Positions 1 to 10,992 of a DNA stretch of 36,810 nucleotides are shown piece by piece. Positions within the stretch are counted from its first letter, which is position 1, and the number at the start of each line of letters is the position of its first letter. Position numbers and translations under genes: made by a program. The DNA is from Oligoflexia bacterium (GTDB lineage: Bacteria; Bdellovibrionota; Bdellovibrionia; JABDDW01). Below the pieces are notes generated by a model. It did not search any database, had not been told where the DNA came from, and was given only the letters and a program-made list of their open reading frames with translations. The stretch spans positions 1 through 36,810 of the forward strand of contig JADLCR010000015.1 in NCBI GenBank assembly GCA_020847095.1, read 5' to 3'.

Positions 1-44
1 CCTTGAGGCGGCGGCTGGCCGTCCTTGGCCAGAGCCTCCCCTTC

Positions 45-131
45 GCCAAAGTCTGCAAGCCCGCTACTTTGAGATGCAGTAAGTTCTCAGTGTAAGCAAT
101 TGAGCACTTGGCAGAGCAAGCTTGTCGCAGG
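45..131. repeat. 87-bp direct repeat, copy 1
   Basis: This 87-bp sequence recurs in the same orientation at 718-804 with only two base differences, so the two are recent copies or are kept alike by gene conversion. A more divergent version of its second half is seen around 4017-4085. No reading frame or known element was recognised in it. Confidence 0.85.
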
Positions 132-155: not shown

Positions 156-275
156 TTTGGCATCAGGAGGATCGGGCTATTTCGTTGGCGGGCTCTCGTG
201 GGCAGGATGCCCGAGTTACGAGCCGAGCCCGGAGGGCGTCCCGCCAGAGAAAGAGCTCGAACTCCTTAGGTCAAG
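156..275. repeat. 120-bp palindromic repeat, copy 1 (decayed 3' end)
   Basis: This is a 120-bp unit that begins TTTGGCATCAGGAG. In the other copies it ends in the inverse, CTCCTGATGCCAAA. Here the 3' arm has decayed to CTCCTTAGGTCAAG. The interior contains nested inverted segments, including GGGCA-GGA-TGCCC and CTCGTG/CACGAG, so the whole unit can fold into one long imperfect hairpin or cruciform. Near-identical copies lie at 4109-4228 and 4811-4930. Confidence 0.85.
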
Positions 276-804: not shown

Positions 805-973
805 GGAGCCTCTGACCATGGATGGGAAGCGGCATCTACGGATGGATTTTCCCCGAAGACAAGGTTGGCTGCCAAGGGATCAAAAGCAACGTCTTCCGCA
901 AGAAAAATAGCACGAACTCCTGATGCCAAAGTATGAAAGCCCGACCTAGTTTGAGGGTTGAAAGTGTTGTGGA

Positions 974-2269
974 TTAATTGCGCCGAGTTGATGAGGCCGG
1001 CGCATTAGGAGGTAAGAAAGACCCGGCCCGGTGTCGCGTTTGATAGCGCCTAGAAACCATTCCGAAAAGGTCATCACCAGCCACTCCGACCGACTCGCCG
1101 GAGGCCAAGGTGCGCGTTAGTCCATTGACGTTACCTTCTTCTCTCTTCTCGTTTCCAAAAAGCCCATCAAGTGGATTTCCCGATCCGCCGCCGCTACGGC
1201 CAAATCCACCGCCCCCTCCACCGCCATCTTCAAAGTCAACGCCTGAAACGCCGAATTTGTCTTGCAGGCCACGTCGGATCCTGCCAAGACCCGCATCTAC
1301 TTGCGGTATTCCGGTGTTAAATCCTGATGAACCACGACTACCGCCCGCTCCACCGCCCAACACTCGATTAGCATTTTCGGCTAATTCGGGATTATTCAAA
1401 AGGGAATTAACCTGCCCTTGATCGGAAAAATCTATCCCCGCCCCATTTGCTGCATTGGCTAAATCAGGAATATAGTTTTGTAAATCGGGCGGCAATTGAG
1501 AAGCAAATTCGGGAGTCAGCGCATTGTTACTTCCAAACACATCATCCATAGTAGGCGTTGCTGCGGGGGACACTTGAGGATTTTCACCTAATTCCGGAAT
1601 TTCAAATGAAGCAAGATTGGGCTGTTGACCTGCAATTAGACCCTCATTGGCATTACGATTGGTAAGAAATGAGTAAACATGAAAAGCGGCGCCAACTAAG
1701 CAAGCCTTGCCAACCATGCAGAGAGTGGAACCCATGGGCGAAGCTTGACATGCAGGAACAGGTGGAATCGCCGCAGTTACGGCATCGGCTCCTGGAGCCG
1801 GCGCCGGAGGAGGTGCCGATGCTGCTCCTGGGGGACAGCACATTCTTGTTAACCCTACACCCACTCCAATTTCGGCCACAATCGCAATGATATTTTTTCG
1901 CACTTCCGCCTTATGAGTGTCTCTGAGACTCTCACTTTCGCGGCGATTGGCATCGGCCACACGTCGGCACTCCGCCAAATTTAATTCAAGGTTTTCTTGC
2001 GCACGTTGCTTACATGTTTCTAAGTACTCGGAATTAGGTGTTGCACCTTCTCTGCCATATCGATCTTCGCATTGGCGCAAGGCTTCTGTATGCCGACGAG
2101 TGACTTCGGCTGTGCATGTGGGATCCACATTACCTGACGGTCGTGCGGGCGCTCCACCACCGGGCCGTTGAGGGGTGGTGGACTCACCGTCATTTTCTAA
2201 AACAGCAAAAGCCTGTGATGGTGCCACCAACGACAGAATCAAAATCACTTTTAAAAACTTATGGCCCAT
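974..2269 (-). CDS. Exported glycine-rich protein, function unknown
   Basis: This 431-residue protein begins with a basic residue, a hydrophobic stretch and a cleavage-like SQAFA, which together read as a Sec signal peptide. A charged, helix-prone part with spaced cysteines follows (about residues 50-110), then a hydrophobic stretch with paired Cys and Ala/Pro residues (about 125-200). A central section rich in Asn/Pro/Leu comes next. The final part is strongly glycine-rich (about 300-375). AAGGAAGAG upstream of the ATG is a fair ribosome site. It starts 14 bases after the stop of the 465-residue gene at 2284-3681, so the two form an operon and share a signal peptide/Cys/Gly-rich plan. I do not recognise a family. 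A surface or periplasmic role is inference only. Confidence 0.8.
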   Translation of the reverse strand: MGHKFLKVILILSLVAPSQAFAVLENDGESTTPQRPGGGAPARPSGNVDPTCTAEVTRRHTEALRQCEDRYGREGATPNSEYLETCKQRAQENLELNLAECRRVADANRRESESLRDTHKAEVRKNIIAIVAEIGVGVGLTRMCCPPGAASAPPPAPAPGADAVTAAIPPVPACQASPMGSTLCMVGKACLVGAAFHVYSFLTNRNANEGLIAGQQPNLASFEIPELGENPQVSPAATPTMDDVFGSNNALTPEFASQLPPDLQNYIPDLANAANGAGIDFSDQGQVNSLLNNPELAENANRVLGGGAGGSRGSSGFNTGIPQVDAGLGRIRRGLQDKFGVSGVDFEDGGGGGGGFGRSGGGSGNPLDGLFGNEKREEGNVNGLTRTLASGESVGVAGDDLFGMVSRRYQTRHRAGSFLPPNAPASSTRRN

Positions 2270-3681: not shown

Positions 3682-3864
3682 GTTCGGTAGCCTCCGCCTA
3701 TTTACCCAATCATTTGATCGGTAGGCGGGGCTTTGGTCTTAAGACCTAATGCTGGTTTTTTTGATCAAAAATCGTCTAAAACTTCGACAGCCCCGCTCTC
3801 AAATCCATCCAATTCCTCTCAAAGCGGACGAGCCTGCAATCCCGCTGCTTTGAAAGCTATTTCA

Positions 3865-3986
3865 TTTTAGTAAAGCAGGTTTGCAATTCTCTCCGAGCAA
3901 GACGCCCTCCATGGCTCGACCGATTCGGAGGCCCTCCTGGCATCGGAGCTTGCTCTTCGAGAACCGCAACTCCTGCTTTACTAAAA
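3865..3986. repeat. 122-bp palindromic repeat, copy 1
   Basis: The ends TTTTAGTAAAGCAGG and CCTGCTTTACTAAAA are perfect 15-bp inverted repeats. The interior has further paired segments such as GAGCAAG/CTTGCTC. The copy at 4642-4758 has AGCTGG/CCAGCT where this one has AGCAGG/CCTGCT, a double change that preserves pairing. Confidence 0.85.
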
Positions 3987-4108
3987 GGACCTGTGTCTTA
4001 AAGCAGACGGGCTTTTAGACTTTGAGACGCAGCAACTTCTCGGGGTGAGAATTTTAGCCCTTGGCAGAGCAAGCTTGTCGCAGAGGAGCCTTCGAAGTGT
4101 GTTGCTAT

Positions 4109-4228
4109 TTTGGCATCAGGAGGATCGGGCTTTTTCGTCGGCGGGCTCTCGTGGGCAGGATGCCCGAGTCACGAGCCGAGCCCGGAGGGCGTCCCGCCAG
4201 AGAAAGAGCACGAACTCCTGATGCCAAA
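4109..4228. repeat. 120-bp palindromic repeat, copy 2 (intact ends)
   Basis: This copy has perfect 14-bp inverted ends, TTTGGCATCAGGAG and CTCCTGATGCCAAA. Its 92-bp interior is identical to that of the copy at 4811-4930. Size and ends resemble a small non-autonomous mobile or REP-type element. No target-site duplication was established. Confidence 0.85.
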
Positions 4229-4345
4229 GTTTGCAAGCCCGTCTGCTTTGAGAGTAAGTCTGTTTAACGAAGTCACAATTGCCTCTCTCGAATACCATCC
4301 GGACGCGAAGAATTAGTTTAGGGGCTCATTAGACTTGGCACTACT

Positions 4346-4377
4346 TGAAAAGAAAAATGCCGGGCGAGGCCGGCATT
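4346..4377 (-). terminator. Rho-independent terminator (minus strand)
   Basis: The same 8-bp stem as at 433-464, AATGCCGG/CCGGCATT, is followed on the minus strand by TTTTTCTTTTC. It would end transcripts from the Tad-like gene at 4969-7026, leaving about 600 nt of repeat-filled 3' region that runs antisense to the small frame at 4408-4542. Confidence 0.7.
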
Positions 4378-4588
4378 GAGTGATCTCCTTTTTGAAAGGA
4401 GGTCGATATGAAAAAACAACACTATTTTTCATATCGGAACAAACGAGCCAAACTTAAGTATTTCATAAGCCTTCAAAACCTTATGACTGCAATGCGGCTT
4501 TTTGAAATACTCGTGCGGTTCATCTTTTTCAAACTGGGCTAAGCGGAGTTTACCCAAGCCATCTGAGATCTAAGATGTCGCCTCGCCC
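4356..4588. repeat. 233-bp structured duplicated unit, copy 2
   Basis: This is the second copy of the unit at 443-675, identical in length. All main stems are retained. In the GTATTTC/GAAATAC stem, one A-C mismatch of copy 1 is replaced by a G-C pair, and the CTCC/GGAGG hairpin has an A-U pair where copy 1 has a wobble. Both copies lie in the downstream region of a minus-strand gene, here the Tad-like gene ending at 4969. Confidence 0.75.
4408..4542 (+). CDS. Candidate 44-aa small protein, copy 2
   Basis: ATG at 4408 lies five bases after GGAGG (4398-4402) and the frame has 44 codons. The peptide starts MKKQHYFSYRNKR and ends RFIFFKLG, matching the frame at 495-629 except for eight substitutions. 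In RNA, bases 4383-4391 can pair with 4395-4403 (nine pairs, three-base loop) and would hide the whole Shine-Dalgarno site. The start codon is in a second stem closed by CGATATGAAAA/TTTTCATATCG. A basic head with a hydrophobic helical tail would fit a small membrane-active peptide. The alternative is that the frame is fortuitous within a structured minus-strand RNA. Confidence 0.4.
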   Translation: MKKQHYFSYRNKRAKLKYFISLQNLMTAMRLFEILVRFIFFKLG

Positions 4589-4641
4589 TTCATTAAGACG
4601 CCCTGTCTTCGGGGAAAATCCTTGCTATAAGACACAGGTCC

Positions 4642-4758
4642 TTTTAGTAAAGCTGGGTTGCAATTCTCTCCGAGCAAGACGCCCTCCATGGCTCGACCGA
4701 TTCGGAGGCCCTCCTGGCATCGGAGCTTGCTCTTCGAGAATCACAACTCCAGCTTTAC
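4642..4758. repeat. 122-bp palindromic repeat, copy 2
   Basis: The left arm is TTTTAGTAAAGCTGG and the right arm starts CCAGCTTTAC. The outer part of the right arm has decayed. To the left, GACACAGGTCC extends the unit and matches the inverse of what follows copy 1 at 3987-3997, so the full palindrome was probably longer. Confidence 0.8.
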
Positions 4759-4810
4759 AAATAAACTAAGTCTCAAAGCAAAAGGGCCTGCTTCTGAAGT
4801 GTTTTGCTGT

Positions 4811-4930
4811 TTTGGCATCAGGAGGATCGGGCTTTTTCGTCGGCGGGCTCTCGTGGGCAGGATGCCCGAGTCACGAGCCGAGCCCGGAGGGCGTCCCGCC
4901 AGAGAAAGAGCACGAACTCCTGATGCCAGA
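4811..4930. repeat. 120-bp palindromic repeat, copy 3
   Basis: The ends are TTTGGCATCAGGAG and CTCCTGATGCCAGA, with one mismatch against a perfect inverted pair. The interior is identical to the copy at 4109-4228. It lies 38 bp beyond the stop of the Tad-like gene. Confidence 0.85.
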
Positions 4931-4968: not shown

Positions 4969-7026
4969 TCACTGAGGGGGATTACGAATGGAGCCGGTAA
5001 CGCTTCCGCCACCGAGAGGCAAATTACCTTTTGTGAGAAAGCGCCTTGAAACAATTTTCACCGAATAGCCCGAACGCCCGCCTTTTGCCGACTCTTCACC
5101 AATTCCTTCAAAGGTGTTGTAGGTTCCGGGATTAGCCAATCCCTCCGACCAACTGGTGTGAATATTTTCGGGATTGCGGATAAACCAATAAGCGTCGGCA
5201 GGAATGGTCGGGTTACCGGCGCCGCGAAAGTTAAATAAGATTTGATTGCGCACTGTAAAAAACGTTCGGCTTTGAATGGCCTGACGATTTGTTCCGAAGT
5301 CAAAACACTTTTCATTGCAAACATTCTGCGTCACAAAGCTGGCCTGAGGGCCACCACGATCTTCTATCCAACGATTGAACTCGGGGTGAATCGAATAGTA
5401 AGCAGCATCAAAAAGATCCGGACTGATCGCCGCAATCTCTGCCATTCGCACTGGGTAGTTTTGTCTTCCCGAACTGTTGTACACAATTAAATCTTCTTTT
5501 GGATCGCCATCGGATTCTAAAAGTAAGCCGTAATCATCGATCATGTGTTTGGGCATATCGCGATCGTTGGGCCCTCGGCGCGAGTGAACGGCAAAAAGCC
5601 CTGCGGATCTAGAAATTCTTGAGCTCGCGCCATAACGATCACCCGGAAATCGTGAGTAATTGGGATGATTACCGTTGAGACTCGGAATCCCCGAGCCCAT
5701 GCGAATGGGTAAAAGGGGATCTACGCGATCCGCGGTCCCTTGACCTGAGCTTTGCCCGTCGCCGGGCCCCCAAGTTTTTCCGTACCACGGGCCCACGCGC
5801 CCGCCAAATGGCATGGCGTAACTTTCAGCCAAAAGCTCGACGGTTCCAGAACCTAAAGGACTAAAGATCATCCGCGGCTTTGATTTAGCCCGCACATGCA
5901 CGTAAGCCAAGATCCACGGATTTTTTTCAAATCCCACAAGACTTTTAATGGGAGTGTTTCCCGAAGTGGTTTCAAGCGCAAACGCTTGTGCCGATGTGGG
6001 CTGCGCATTGGAATAGTCGGTGGCCGCGTAAAAAGTTGCCGCTTGCACAATTTGATTAGTGGCCGGTGTGTCACGAGGTTTAATAATAATGTCTTGAGGC
6101 TGCCCGTCGCACGTTCCAGTGCCTCCGCGCAAGTCCATGTATTTAACAAAGGCGCGCACTTCAATGGGAGTTAAAAACGGTTGCGTCAGCGAGTGCGAAA
6201 ATTCAAACTCGACTCCAGGCGCATTGGTGCTAGTGAGATTGTTTCTAAATGTTTTCTCCACCGTGGCTCTAACCGAGTTTCCAAATAGATCGGTGAAATC
6301 ATCGGCGCGCCTCGAGGCCAAAAACAAGTTTTGAAGCCTTCTCATAGCTGCCCGTCTATCGCGCACGGCATTTTTGTAGCTCGCCAAAATTTTGAAGGCC
6401 ATCACGTAGTTGTCATAGCCCGCGCGATCGCACTGCCCGGTAATTCGATTGGCGGACTCTCGGCTAAATCGAAAAAGGGGGCCAAGGATTTGACCGACAA
6501 TGGGCAAACGATCCAATCCAAAACTTGGAATCACGGGCAAGCGGTAGTTGATGTTTGAGTTCTTGCACAAATTCTGCAGACTCGTCCGTCGACTCACCGG
6601 GCGGTTGTTTCTGATTTCCCAATTGTTCTCAAACCAAAAAGGGTTTTGAAGACAAACAAGCGGCCCCGTAAAACTCGAATTGACATAGGTCGGCGGCCCA
6701 TCTGACAAAGGGGGCCTCCTGCCGCCTTGATTCGTTGAGTAGGAATCAAAATCACGATTGCGTCCCGCATCAGCAAGAGTCCAAAGGCGCCAGGCCATCA
6801 ACTTCCAAGCCTGGCGAATTTGATAATTCACATGAGCCATGGCATTAAAAATTTCAGCTTGCTTCATGGCTCCGTAGTAAGCGGCAATGTCTGTCGAGTT
6901 TTGCAAATTGATTTTGTCATGGACCAGCACGCCCACATTGATGACCATCGCAAAAAACACGAATAGCACCTGAAACAAAATGGCGATCAAAATCGAAATC
7001 TGTCCTCGAGAATTTCTGCCTTCCAT
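4969..7026 (-). CDS. Tad-like (TadE/TadG-type) membrane-anchored protein
   Basis: This 685-residue protein has a short basic N-terminus (MEGRNSRGQ) followed by a single strong membrane segment (about 10-35). It continues into VLVHDKINLQNSTDIAAYYG, the layout of the Tad/TadG-like N-terminal domain in proteins linked to Flp-type pili. In such proteins the N-terminal helix anchors a large part outside the cytoplasm. The remaining roughly 600 residues (many Arg, Asn, Gly and Pro, scattered cysteines) were not assigned to a domain. No other tad gene (tadA, tadB, rcpA, flp) is in the window, so a pilus role is uncertain. Its 3' region runs into repeat island 2. It is divergent from the gene at 7135. 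Confidence 0.7.
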   Translation of the reverse strand: MEGRNSRGQISILIAILFQVLFVFFAMVINVGVLVHDKINLQNSTDIAAYYGAMKQAEIFNAMAHVNYQIRQAWKLMAWRLWTLADAGRNRDFDSYSTNQGGRRPPLSDGPPTYVNSSFTGPLVCLQNPFWFENNWEIRNNRPVSRRTSLQNLCKNSNINYRLPVIPSFGLDRLPIVGQILGPLFRFSRESANRITGQCDRAGYDNYVMAFKILASYKNAVRDRRAAMRRLQNLFLASRRADDFTDLFGNSVRATVEKTFRNNLTSTNAPGVEFEFSHSLTQPFLTPIEVRAFVKYMDLRGGTGTCDGQPQDIIIKPRDTPATNQIVQAATFYAATDYSNAQPTSAQAFALETTSGNTPIKSLVGFEKNPWILAYVHVRAKSKPRMIFSPLGSGTVELLAESYAMPFGGRVGPWYGKTWGPGDGQSSGQGTADRVDPLLPIRMGSGIPSLNGNHPNYSRFPGDRYGASSRISRSAGLFAVHSRRGPNDRDMPKHMIDDYGLLLESDGDPKEDLIVYNSSGRQNYPVRMAEIAAISPDLFDAAYYSIHPEFNRWIEDRGGPQASFVTQNVCNEKCFDFGTNRQAIQSRTFFTVRNQILFNFRGAGNPTIPADAYWFIRNPENIHTSWSEGLANPGTYNTFEGIGEESAKGGRSGYSVKIVSRRFLTKGNLPLGGGSVTGSIRNPPQ

Positions 7027-9092: not shown

Positions 9093-9218
9093 CGATGGCG
9101 CGCCCGCGGCAAAGCCGCAAGGGCACACTGGAAAAGGGTTTTAAGACCAAATCCAGAGGGAAGCGGAGTGAAATTCTCCCACGGACCCGCCACTGTAAAG
9201 TCAGGAGACCGGCCATCG
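9093..9218 (+). promoter_or_regulatory. Cobalamin riboswitch
   Basis: The conserved core is clear: GGGAAGCGGAGTGAAATTC, then GGACCCGCCACTGT, then the B12-box segment AGTCAGGAGACCGGCC (9199-9214). The closing stem pairs CGATGGC (9093-9099) with GCCATCG (9212-9218). It lies immediately before the BtuB-type receptor, the classical target. Just downstream GAG-TTA (9218-9224) can pair with TAACTC (9235-9240) around the AAGG ribosome site, and no terminator is visible, so control is probably at translation. Confidence 0.95.
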
Positions 9219-9243
9219 AGGTTAAATAGAAAGGTAACTCTTC

Positions 9244-10992
9244 GTGGACCTAAGAGTTCTGGCTCTTCTCATTTTTTCGTCTCTGACCCATGCTCAAACT
9301 GTGTTTGAGCCGCCAATGCAAGTATCGGGCGACGCCGTCGATCGATTTCAGTTTCGTCAAACCCATCGGCCCGTCGAAACAATCAAGCGTGAACAATTGC
9401 GGCTTGATACAAAAACTCAGTTAAGTGACAGCCTCAATCAGCTGCCCGGAGTGCAATCGCGATTTGAAGGAAGCCCTCTCATCAGTATTCGCGGCTCCCA
9501 AAGCTCATTTCGAAATCTAGTTCTTCAAGACGGAGTTCCTTTAAGTTTTGCAGATGGCATCGGATTTAACCCGCTTTTCATTGCCGATGAATCACTAGAA
9601 TCAATGACCATTCTCAAGGGTCCGGGATCTTCAGAGCTGGGTCGAGATGCCATGCATGGAGCCGTGGCGTTTCGTTCAAAGATTTTGCAAAGTCCAGAGG
9701 TTCGACTCAGCGCGGGCTCTTTTGAAAGTAAGAAGGTTTATTTAGCCACGCCTCTTACTCAAGGTCCCGTTCGCTCTCAAGCAACTTTGTATCACACCAC
9801 TGCTTCGGGCTATCGCCCACGGTCGGATAAGGATTTAAAACGCGCCACCTTACGAGTTTTTCAAAACGCTGATTCATACCGCTGGTCAGTTTTTTCTCTT
9901 GGAGCCCAAGAGATCGGATCAGCGCCCGGATCCACTTATTTTTCTTCTGCCGACAGCTTCAATAATTGGGGAATCATGTCCGGAGCTTCGGCGCAAATTC
10001 AAATCTTTGAATCCCTTGAGGTGCAGCCTCATATTGGATTTAAGAAAATTGACCAACGACCCGGGAGTACAGCACCCAACATCACAACCGGCGGAAACTT
10101 CGGCCTGGGAATAAAAAAGACCTTAGAAAATTACTCCGTCGATGGCTTCTACGAAGGCTACAACGAGACTTTTACAGCCAGTTACTTTCCCGGCGGTGCG
10201 CTTAGCCAGCAAACCCATGATTTTGGCGGAGGCCTCCGATGGGACTTCAATGAAAGCCTCACGCTTCTTGCTTCGGCTCGCTACTCAGGTTCCGAACAAG
10301 GCGCGCTTAGCCCCGCCATCGGACTTGTGGGCATGAGTTCATCAGAAGAAAAATTTTTCGCCTCCTACGCCGAGGGTCACCACCCCCCAAGTTTATCGCA
10401 AAAATTTGGCGAGTCTTTGGGCTTTCGTGGAAATCCCGCGCTAGTGGGCGAAAAAAGCCGAGAGCTCAGTTTAGGTTTTGAAAAATCTTGGTCCGAAGTC
10501 ACCACTTACTTTGAGGCTTTTTCCAGAGACAGCCTAAACCTCATTGAAAATCAAAATTTTTCCGGCACCTACATCCCACAGAATATTTCAAGCGCCCGGG
10601 CCACCGGTTTTGAATCGACAACCCGTTGGAATCCCAATTCATGGATCTTGATGGGATCCCTGAGTTACCTCAAAAATGAAAACACCCAAACCAAAGAAGC
10701 CTTGACCTACTCTCCCGCCATTCAGGCCAGTCTCAGCATCGGACAAGTTCTTGATCGATGGAGCTGGACTCTGAGCGAAACCTATTGGGGCGATTACTTC
10801 GCCCGCAACACCAATAATCAATTGGCTAATCTAGGGCAATGGAACACGCTGGATTTGCAGCTTGGCTATCAGGTCGACAAAATTCAGCTTCTCTTCGCCA
10901 TTAACAATATTTTTAATCAACCTAGAGAGCTCACATTGGGTTATCCTGAGGCTCCAAGAAATTTTCAACTCACGGTCTCGGGGGTGTTTTAA
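9244..10992 (+). CDS. btuB: TonB-dependent outer-membrane receptor, BtuB type
   Basis: This is the outer-membrane vitamin B12 receptor, as judged by the cobalamin riboswitch before it and the B12 ABC genes after it. The 582 residues begin with a signal peptide (about 1-17). The N-terminal plug follows (about 40-145), with LRLDTKTQLSDSLNQLPGV, ISIRGSQSSFRNLVLQDG and ILKGPGSSELGRDAMHGAV. The 22-strand-type barrel ends in a C-terminal Phe, as expected for assembly by the BAM complex. An obvious TonB box was not identified. The start is GTG at 9244 with AAGG eight bases upstream; this is the only start close to the riboswitch. The stop overlaps the next ATG by one base. Confidence 0.9.
   Translation: MDLRVLALLIFSSLTHAQTVFEPPMQVSGDAVDRFQFRQTHRPVETIKREQLRLDTKTQLSDSLNQLPGVQSRFEGSPLISIRGSQSSFRNLVLQDGVPLSFADGIGFNPLFIADESLESMTILKGPGSSELGRDAMHGAVAFRSKILQSPEVRLSAGSFESKKVYLATPLTQGPVRSQATLYHTTASGYRPRSDKDLKRATLRVFQNADSYRWSVFSLGAQEIGSAPGSTYFSSADSFNNWGIMSGASAQIQIFESLEVQPHIGFKKIDQRPGSTAPNITTGGNFGLGIKKTLENYSVDGFYEGYNETFTASYFPGGALSQQTHDFGGGLRWDFNESLTLLASARYSGSEQGALSPAIGLVGMSSSEEKFFASYAEGHHPPSLSQKFGESLGFRGNPALVGEKSRELSLGFEKSWSEVTTYFEAFSRDSLNLIENQNFSGTYIPQNISSARATGFESTTRWNPNSWILMGSLSYLKNENTQTKEALTYSPAIQASLSIGQVLDRWSWTLSETYWGDYFARNTNNQLANLGQWNTLDLQLGYQVDKIQLLFAINNIFNQPRELTLGYPEAPRNFQLTVSGVF

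Follow-up and report, generated by a model that had tools for sequence, protein, structure and literature searches.

REP/BIME elements are described in the accessible text of PMC3733652 as palindromes of 20–40 bp with a GTAG or CGTC tag; most are found past the end of a coding region and between convergent genes, and pairs in opposite orientation are frequent. The structured RNA TwoAYGGAY (RF01731) carries two hairpins with GGA loops on a long outer stem; binding of this RNA to CsrA is a proposal in the accessible part of PMC4333381. Replication template switching, as set out in the available portion of PMC8794818, is a mutation process studied in RNA genes that predicts perfect stems together with multi-base changes mirrored between the two arms. 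The hairpin family described here is best read as a dispersed, REP-like element of Bdellovibrio and its class with a distinct architecture. Like the REP/BIME elements of that account (PMC3733652, as far as accessible), its members are dispersed palindromes downstream of genes that also occur as opposite pairs; they differ in length (~120–170 bp), in a branched conserved core with locus-specific arms, and in that no conserved GTAG or CGTC tag and no association with RAYT genes was found. MITEs and small intergenic repeats of the enterobacterial type are likewise small, intergenic, palindromic, and present in multiple copies, but in the hairpin family terminal inverted repeats are not conserved, a target duplication cannot be read, and no matching transposase ends were found. 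With TwoAYGGAY, the family shares two hairpins on a long and poorly conserved outer stem, GGA loops, and a single sub-threshold match; it differs in a hairpin hp1 whose loop mostly lacks GGA, in an extra hairpin (hp1b), and in its many copies per genome at gene ends. A literature search, which had most subscription journals outside its reach, found no published description of the family.

The stretch of DNA analyzed here (the window) is the entire contig C15 (36,810 bases), one of the 112 contigs of a 2.71-Mb draft genome. Its intergenic stretches hold a 120-bp unit, designated type X, and two further types of hairpin, A and B. Bit scores refer to two covariance models: R2, which was built from type B and includes the long arms, and R3, which was built from 19 core sequences of other genera only, none of them from the window's genome. 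Strands of complete hairpins are those of the core sense.

1..74, minus strand: part of a type A hairpin, with the remainder on contig C36
66..675, plus strand: block of ~600 bp with a linker repeat, an X hairpin, and a small ORF; duplicate at 4019–4588 (81%)
156..275, plus strand: type X hairpin, right arm fused to half a type B hairpin; core 187–245; R3 42.8 bits
276..336, plus strand: type B hairpin (3' half), fused to the X hairpin at 156; 97% match to 4630–4689 (minus)
896..930, plus strand: X fragment (right arm), 91% over 35 nt, ~44 nt past the stop of gene 974–2269 (minus)
3862..3986, minus strand: type B hairpin; R3 31.7 bits, R2 107.1 bits
4109..4228, plus strand: type X hairpin (the 120-bp unit); core 4140–4198; R3 44.2 bits
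4629..4763, minus strand: type B hairpin; R3 31.7 bits, R2 109.8 bits
4811..4930, plus strand: type X hairpin; core 4842–4900; R3 44.2 bits
4969..7026, minus strand: TadE/G-like gene (PF13400, E 2.7e-6)
Contig C25, 17540–17659 and 20612–20731: full copies of X (blastn)
Contig C25, 24971–25011: fragment of X (blastn)

A blastn search of the 2.71-Mb draft found five near-complete X copies (each at least 118 of 120 bases) and two fragments, which confirms the repeat as dispersed. The near-identity that the initial annotation had reported for the copies at 4109–4228 and 4811–4930 holds, with the first 118 bases the same and a single difference near the 3' end; the 14-base inverted ends that it had called perfect are so in the former copy and match at 13 of 14 positions in the latter. 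The stretch at 156–275 is indeed a third copy (94% identity over 119 bases), but the simple decay of its 3' arm that had been proposed gives way to a fusion: from about position 266, the sequence continues into the 3' half of the other hairpin at 276–336. Nor do the 14-base ends mark the boundaries of the unit, since four of the five copies are conserved ~8 bases further to the left and ~28 further to the right. Because the X flanks are themselves conserved, target-site duplications cannot be read at the 14-bp ends. X folds far beyond chance on either strand (z of −6.65 and −7.29; 0 of 200 shuffles equal it), and the hairpin at 4811–4930 lies 39 nt past the stop of the gene at 4969–7026, the 3' end of which faces it. 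Longer duplicated stretches surround the X copies of the window: one of 610 bp at 81%, one of 178 bp at 97%, and one of 277 bp at 92% that is shared with C25. Duplication accounts for the X copies of the window, but not for the spread of the family.

That spread became apparent with the covariance models. R2 drew 13 loci from ten other genomes, all in one other family of the same class. These loci are long hairpins with shared core motifs and arms of unrelated sequence, the arms being perfectly paired in several of them (up to 41/41 bp); a blastn search with one such locus matched many more sites within its 24-genome genus. Class-wide claims rest on R3, because R2 also rewards unrelated long hairpins, antisense controls scoring 12–25 bits. 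In 131,020 bases of the window's genome, R3 detected all five X copies (42.8–44.9 bits), all eight type B copies (31.7–35.5 bits), and nothing else. Across the class, where no more than 33 candidates per genome were scored and counts are therefore lower bounds, R3 was positive in 37 of 143 genomes and 13 of 68 genera. Genus g7 stands out with 23 of its 24 genomes positive, at least 304 copies among those 23, and at least 30 matches in the richest genome. This genus is probably Bdellovibrio; a 22-base core pattern from it matched two Bdellovibrio sp. contigs. Among the class genomes scanned, the family is absent from both other members of the window's own order. The exact core patterns of the window's genome had no matches in assembled genome contigs and viral contigs, and the stretches tested had no blastn match among phages and plasmids. 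The X, B, and class-wide hairpins almost certainly constitute one family.

Its members follow a common plan, with a strongly conserved branched core seated on a long outer stem, the arms of which match each other and not those of other loci. The core is built of an inner stem, a further stem that bears hairpin hp1 and in many copies also hp1b, and hairpin hp2 with a GGA loop motif. The hp1 loop reads ACGAT in 42 of 60 cores; GGA is present in the majority of hp2 loops and also in some of the hp1 loops. The outer arms (~25–45 bp) are nearly perfectly complementary and differ in sequence by locus. Sequences compared by hand indicate that X and B follow one plan (an inner stem, hp1 with the loop AGGAT, and hp2 of the form GAGCC..GGCGT) with hp1 stems of different sequence. 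In 60 distinct cores, aligned by fitting to the model, both partners vary at 21 of 25 core pairs, in 213 cells where shuffled alignments give 52.5; in a model-free alignment, the same holds for 19 of 25 pairs (88 cells against 25.1).

RNA helices under selection are expected to show G-U pairs well above A-C pairs on the transcribed strand. The 60 distinct cores contain 1340 Watson-Crick, 6 G-U, and 14 A-C pairs. Among the arms of 41 hairpins, each distinct arm being counted once and hairpins without an assignable orientation being left out, there are 1325 Watson-Crick, 13 G-U, 19 A-C, and 44 other pairs; the arm finder favors matches, so that arm perfection is overstated here, though equally for G-U and A-C. 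G-U is not in excess over A-C on either strand.

The type B core is GCTCCGATGCCAGGA..GAGCCATGGAGGGCGTC, and type A reads in the opposite direction. The stem arms of both types vary among copies with pairing kept. R3 did not detect type A hairpins in the 131,020 bases of the window's genome. Against the B model, all seven type A copies score 25.8–40.6 bits on the reverse strand, compared with 12.4–25.1 bits for antisense B among the matches listed. Scores above those of antisense B indicate that type A is probably, though not certainly, of the same kind as type B. Positions 1–101 of the window match the reverse of positions 1–101 of C36 at 99%, and the junction of the two contigs probably falls within a type A hairpin. 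A weak match to the type A model (41.3 bits) lies on the minus strand of contig C70 at 3781–3864 (L094), between a long repetitive ORF and an ORF resembling a flagellar hook gene.

The placement of the hairpins was examined for 44 oriented copies of genus g7 at 40 loci (none from L165 and L170), with mechanically called ORFs of at least 80 aa. The gene on the 3' side of the core strand reads toward the hairpin in 37 of the 44 cases and away from it in 6; one copy has no such gene. For 37 of 43, the binomial test gives p = 1.6e-6, an optimistic value because the ORFs are mechanical calls and some orthologs of genomes G008 and G011 are counted twice. The strand that carries GGA is thus antisense to the associated gene. 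In inverted pairs, the cores point outward, typically so that each of two convergent genes is followed by one hairpin; the window's genome has five outward pairs of A and B (on C14, C25, C27, which has two, and C76). The orientation rule is weaker in that genome, where it holds for 11 of 20 hairpins by script, or 12 if the ORF ending at C27 13924 is restored, and several copies precede genes. An ordinary terminator stands on the gene side of 11 of 41 hairpins and on the far side of 1 of 41. A role at the 3' end is weakened by these 11 cases, because an element beyond an ordinary terminator need not be in the mRNA. The longest T run within 20 nt past the stem is at most 3 in 38 of 41 hairpins; that is, a U-tract is absent. 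The arms in genus g7 have only a short tip at the outer end in common, GATTTG/CAAATC, and that in a subset of copies. By eye, no GTAG tag is seen at the foot of the palindrome, and 6 of 41 hairpins have a gene-side flank that terminates in GACG, which reads CGTC on the opposite strand.

Orthologous gene ends allow filled and unfilled sites to be compared. At the end of rpoN, the family is present in three species. At a second locus, the element occurs in two species; its place is taken by an ordinary terminator in G018 and by a short hairpin in G015 (the latter by eye). The same loci thus exist both filled and unfilled, and divergence is too great to place a junction. The rpoN end also holds other structures. 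In G006, G009, and G029 (L118, L115, and L120), it bears long hairpins with near-perfect arms and a different common core, CAGTCCTCGCT..GGAACTCG, and in G007, G013, and G014 (L133, L119, and L126; G014 by eye) it bears a third type of stem-loop with arms GGCTCATCTG..CTGAACC. The lineage seems to have several such hairpin families. Genome G018 also contains a purine riboswitch aptamer at L100 2212–2309 (52.4 bits).

Ten comparisons between orthologs reveal how the arms change. In L112/L114, there are 6 and 6 arm changes, all of them mirrored and one indel included, and both copies are perfect. L190/L191 has 9 and 8 arm changes with mirrored indels, and L145b/L163b has 3 and 2, two of them mirrored. 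Four pairs show little arm change (0 to 2). The bounds of the L146a, L165, and L113 hairpins were set by hand or by pattern, and pairing is understated there, as it is in two comparisons with L113 that included a shifted arm. In L165/L164, one arm has nine changes, the opposite arm and its flank have none, and one of the two species is perfect at 34/34. This case is no more than suggestive of one arm having been copied from the other, and it is not clean proof of copying, because the flank beside the changed arm differs as well (20/60).

Perfect stems and mirrored multi-base changes, the signature of template switching in the accessible part of PMC8794818, are thus also seen in this family. 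The setting differs from the RNA genes of that account: here it is a dispersed repeat family that appears to be subject to the process, its arms being rewritten and its core kept. The mirrored arm changes, indels included, together with the near-absence of G-U favor template switching over ordinary RNA compensation. We infer that template switching during replication at the hairpin keeps its arms complementary, and we regard maintenance of the arms by this process as likely. We also considered the idea that the arms are inverted copies of old terminators. Only 4 of 41 arms beat 95% of shuffles in folding (median p 0.27), which makes the idea weak. The end of rpoN appeared to fit it, with a single arm in G012 and a hairpin in G006 and G009; however, that hairpin belongs to another family, and a deletion in G012 explains the case equally well.

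How the core reached so many places bears on the initial annotation, which had taken the 120-bp unit for a MITE- or REPtron-like element, that is, a small non-autonomous unit whose inverted ends are fixed and which is mobilized by an IS or RAYT transposase encoded elsewhere. Several features speak for such a unit: near-identical copies with inverted ends, a dispersed family, and Y1-transposase genes in 116 of 143 class genomes, including the window's, which has two matches to this RAYT-type enzyme. Dispersed palindromes, placement at gene ends, and inverted pairs remain valid parts of the description; fixed terminal inverted repeats do not, as relatives keep the core and have arms, and thus ends, that are unrelated between loci, and conserved flanks extend beyond the 14-bp ends. 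The transposase part of the proposal fares no better. Of the two Y1 matches, the one examined is a RAYT-like ORF of 227 aa on C33 (4218–4544, L222), and the 9.5 kb analyzed there contain no family hairpin. Across the class, Y1 genes are not associated with the hairpins (33 of 37 positive against 83 of 106 negative genomes; Fisher p 0.22), and four hairpin-bearing genomes, G007 (at least 15 hairpins), G017, G020, and G032, have no Y1 match. Movement of a fixed-ended unit by such an enzyme is therefore rather unlikely. In the Y1 comparison, the X flanks, and the filled and unfilled loci, we found neither a mobilizing enzyme nor a clear insertion junction; dispersal by some form of transposition is nevertheless somewhat probable. 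Purely local duplication in the window's genome with no wider family, the condition under which the annotation would have withdrawn mobility, agrees with the larger duplicated blocks around the window copies. The recurrence of one core at many unrelated sites across 13 genera makes it extremely improbable.

A structured RNA under selection at the RNA level, for example a CsrA-binding RNA like TwoAYGGAY with copies as RNA genes or parts of 3' UTRs, would explain why the branched core covaries and why GGA stands in most hp2 and some hp1 loops. Indeed, TwoAYGGAY is itself a proposed CsrA binder with a poorly conserved outer stem (accessible text of PMC4333381), and one type B hairpin matches RF01731 with 38.9 bits. 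That match, the best obtained, is below the gathering cut-off of 43; among the matches listed, RF01731 appears at 2 of 25 scanned loci, and in one case the match involves only the stem. With E limits of 10, 5, and 1, no Rfam family reached its cut-off in the scanned loci, and the weak matches comprise long-stem microRNA-type families, the two sub-threshold TwoAYGGAY matches, and unrelated hits. The rarity of G-U with no excess over A-C on either strand, the mirrored indels, the mostly GGA-free hp1 loops, and the antisense position of the GGA strand relative to the associated gene all argue against selection on an RNA, which we consider an unlikely explanation. Large intrinsic terminators of the preceding genes would account for the position past stop codons and for the ordinary terminator or short hairpin that sister species have at the place of the element at one locus. 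That reading is made quite improbable by the missing U-tract, by the ordinary terminators already present on the gene side of 11 of 41 hairpins, and by the copies that precede genes in the window's genome.

Between a gene-end insulator and a CsrA-type RNA, the former is favored. We further infer that the core spreads by a copying route into a sheltered place behind genes, where the hairpin could serve as an insulator of the REP-like kind, blocking read-through or 3' exonucleases. An insulator or 3'-end role taken by itself is a tentative suggestion. The whole account, a dispersed family of gene-end hairpins with template-switched arms, a copied core, and a possible insulator function, seems on balance probable. 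A selfish or domesticated element defined by its branched core alone, which would settle behind genes in one orientation and have its stem rewritten time and again by template switching, so that pairing of the stem would be inherited but not its sequence, is a more doubtful reading.

The family offers a natural laboratory for template switching: its stems diverge between loci and species and stay almost perfectly paired. It also carries a caution, namely that covariation of this kind does not prove RNA function, and it supplies a repeat class that has been missing from the annotation of predatory bacteria at the ends of genes. Inverted repeats of 118,019 genomes were surveyed in 2026 with spacers of up to 8 bp admitted, according to the accessible part of PMC13155455, a limit that would make the family invisible to that survey.

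Two other features of the window deserve mention. A small ORF of 44 aa, basic and with a hydrophobic tail, is duplicated at 495–629 and 4408–4542. In each of the surrounding stretches (340–660 and 4253–4590), an inverted repeat able to cover the ribosome-binding site of the small ORF and a terminator-like hairpin precede the ORF, an arrangement that makes a type I toxin-like module possible. The two ORFs differ at 5 synonymous and 8 non-synonymous codons (8, 4, and 6 differences by codon position) and have no Pfam match. Coding is not claimed, because purifying selection is not evident in this pair. Elsewhere in the window, a cobalamin riboswitch aptamer at 9124–9231 (42.9 bits) lies upstream of an ORF at 9244 that resembles a TonB receptor.
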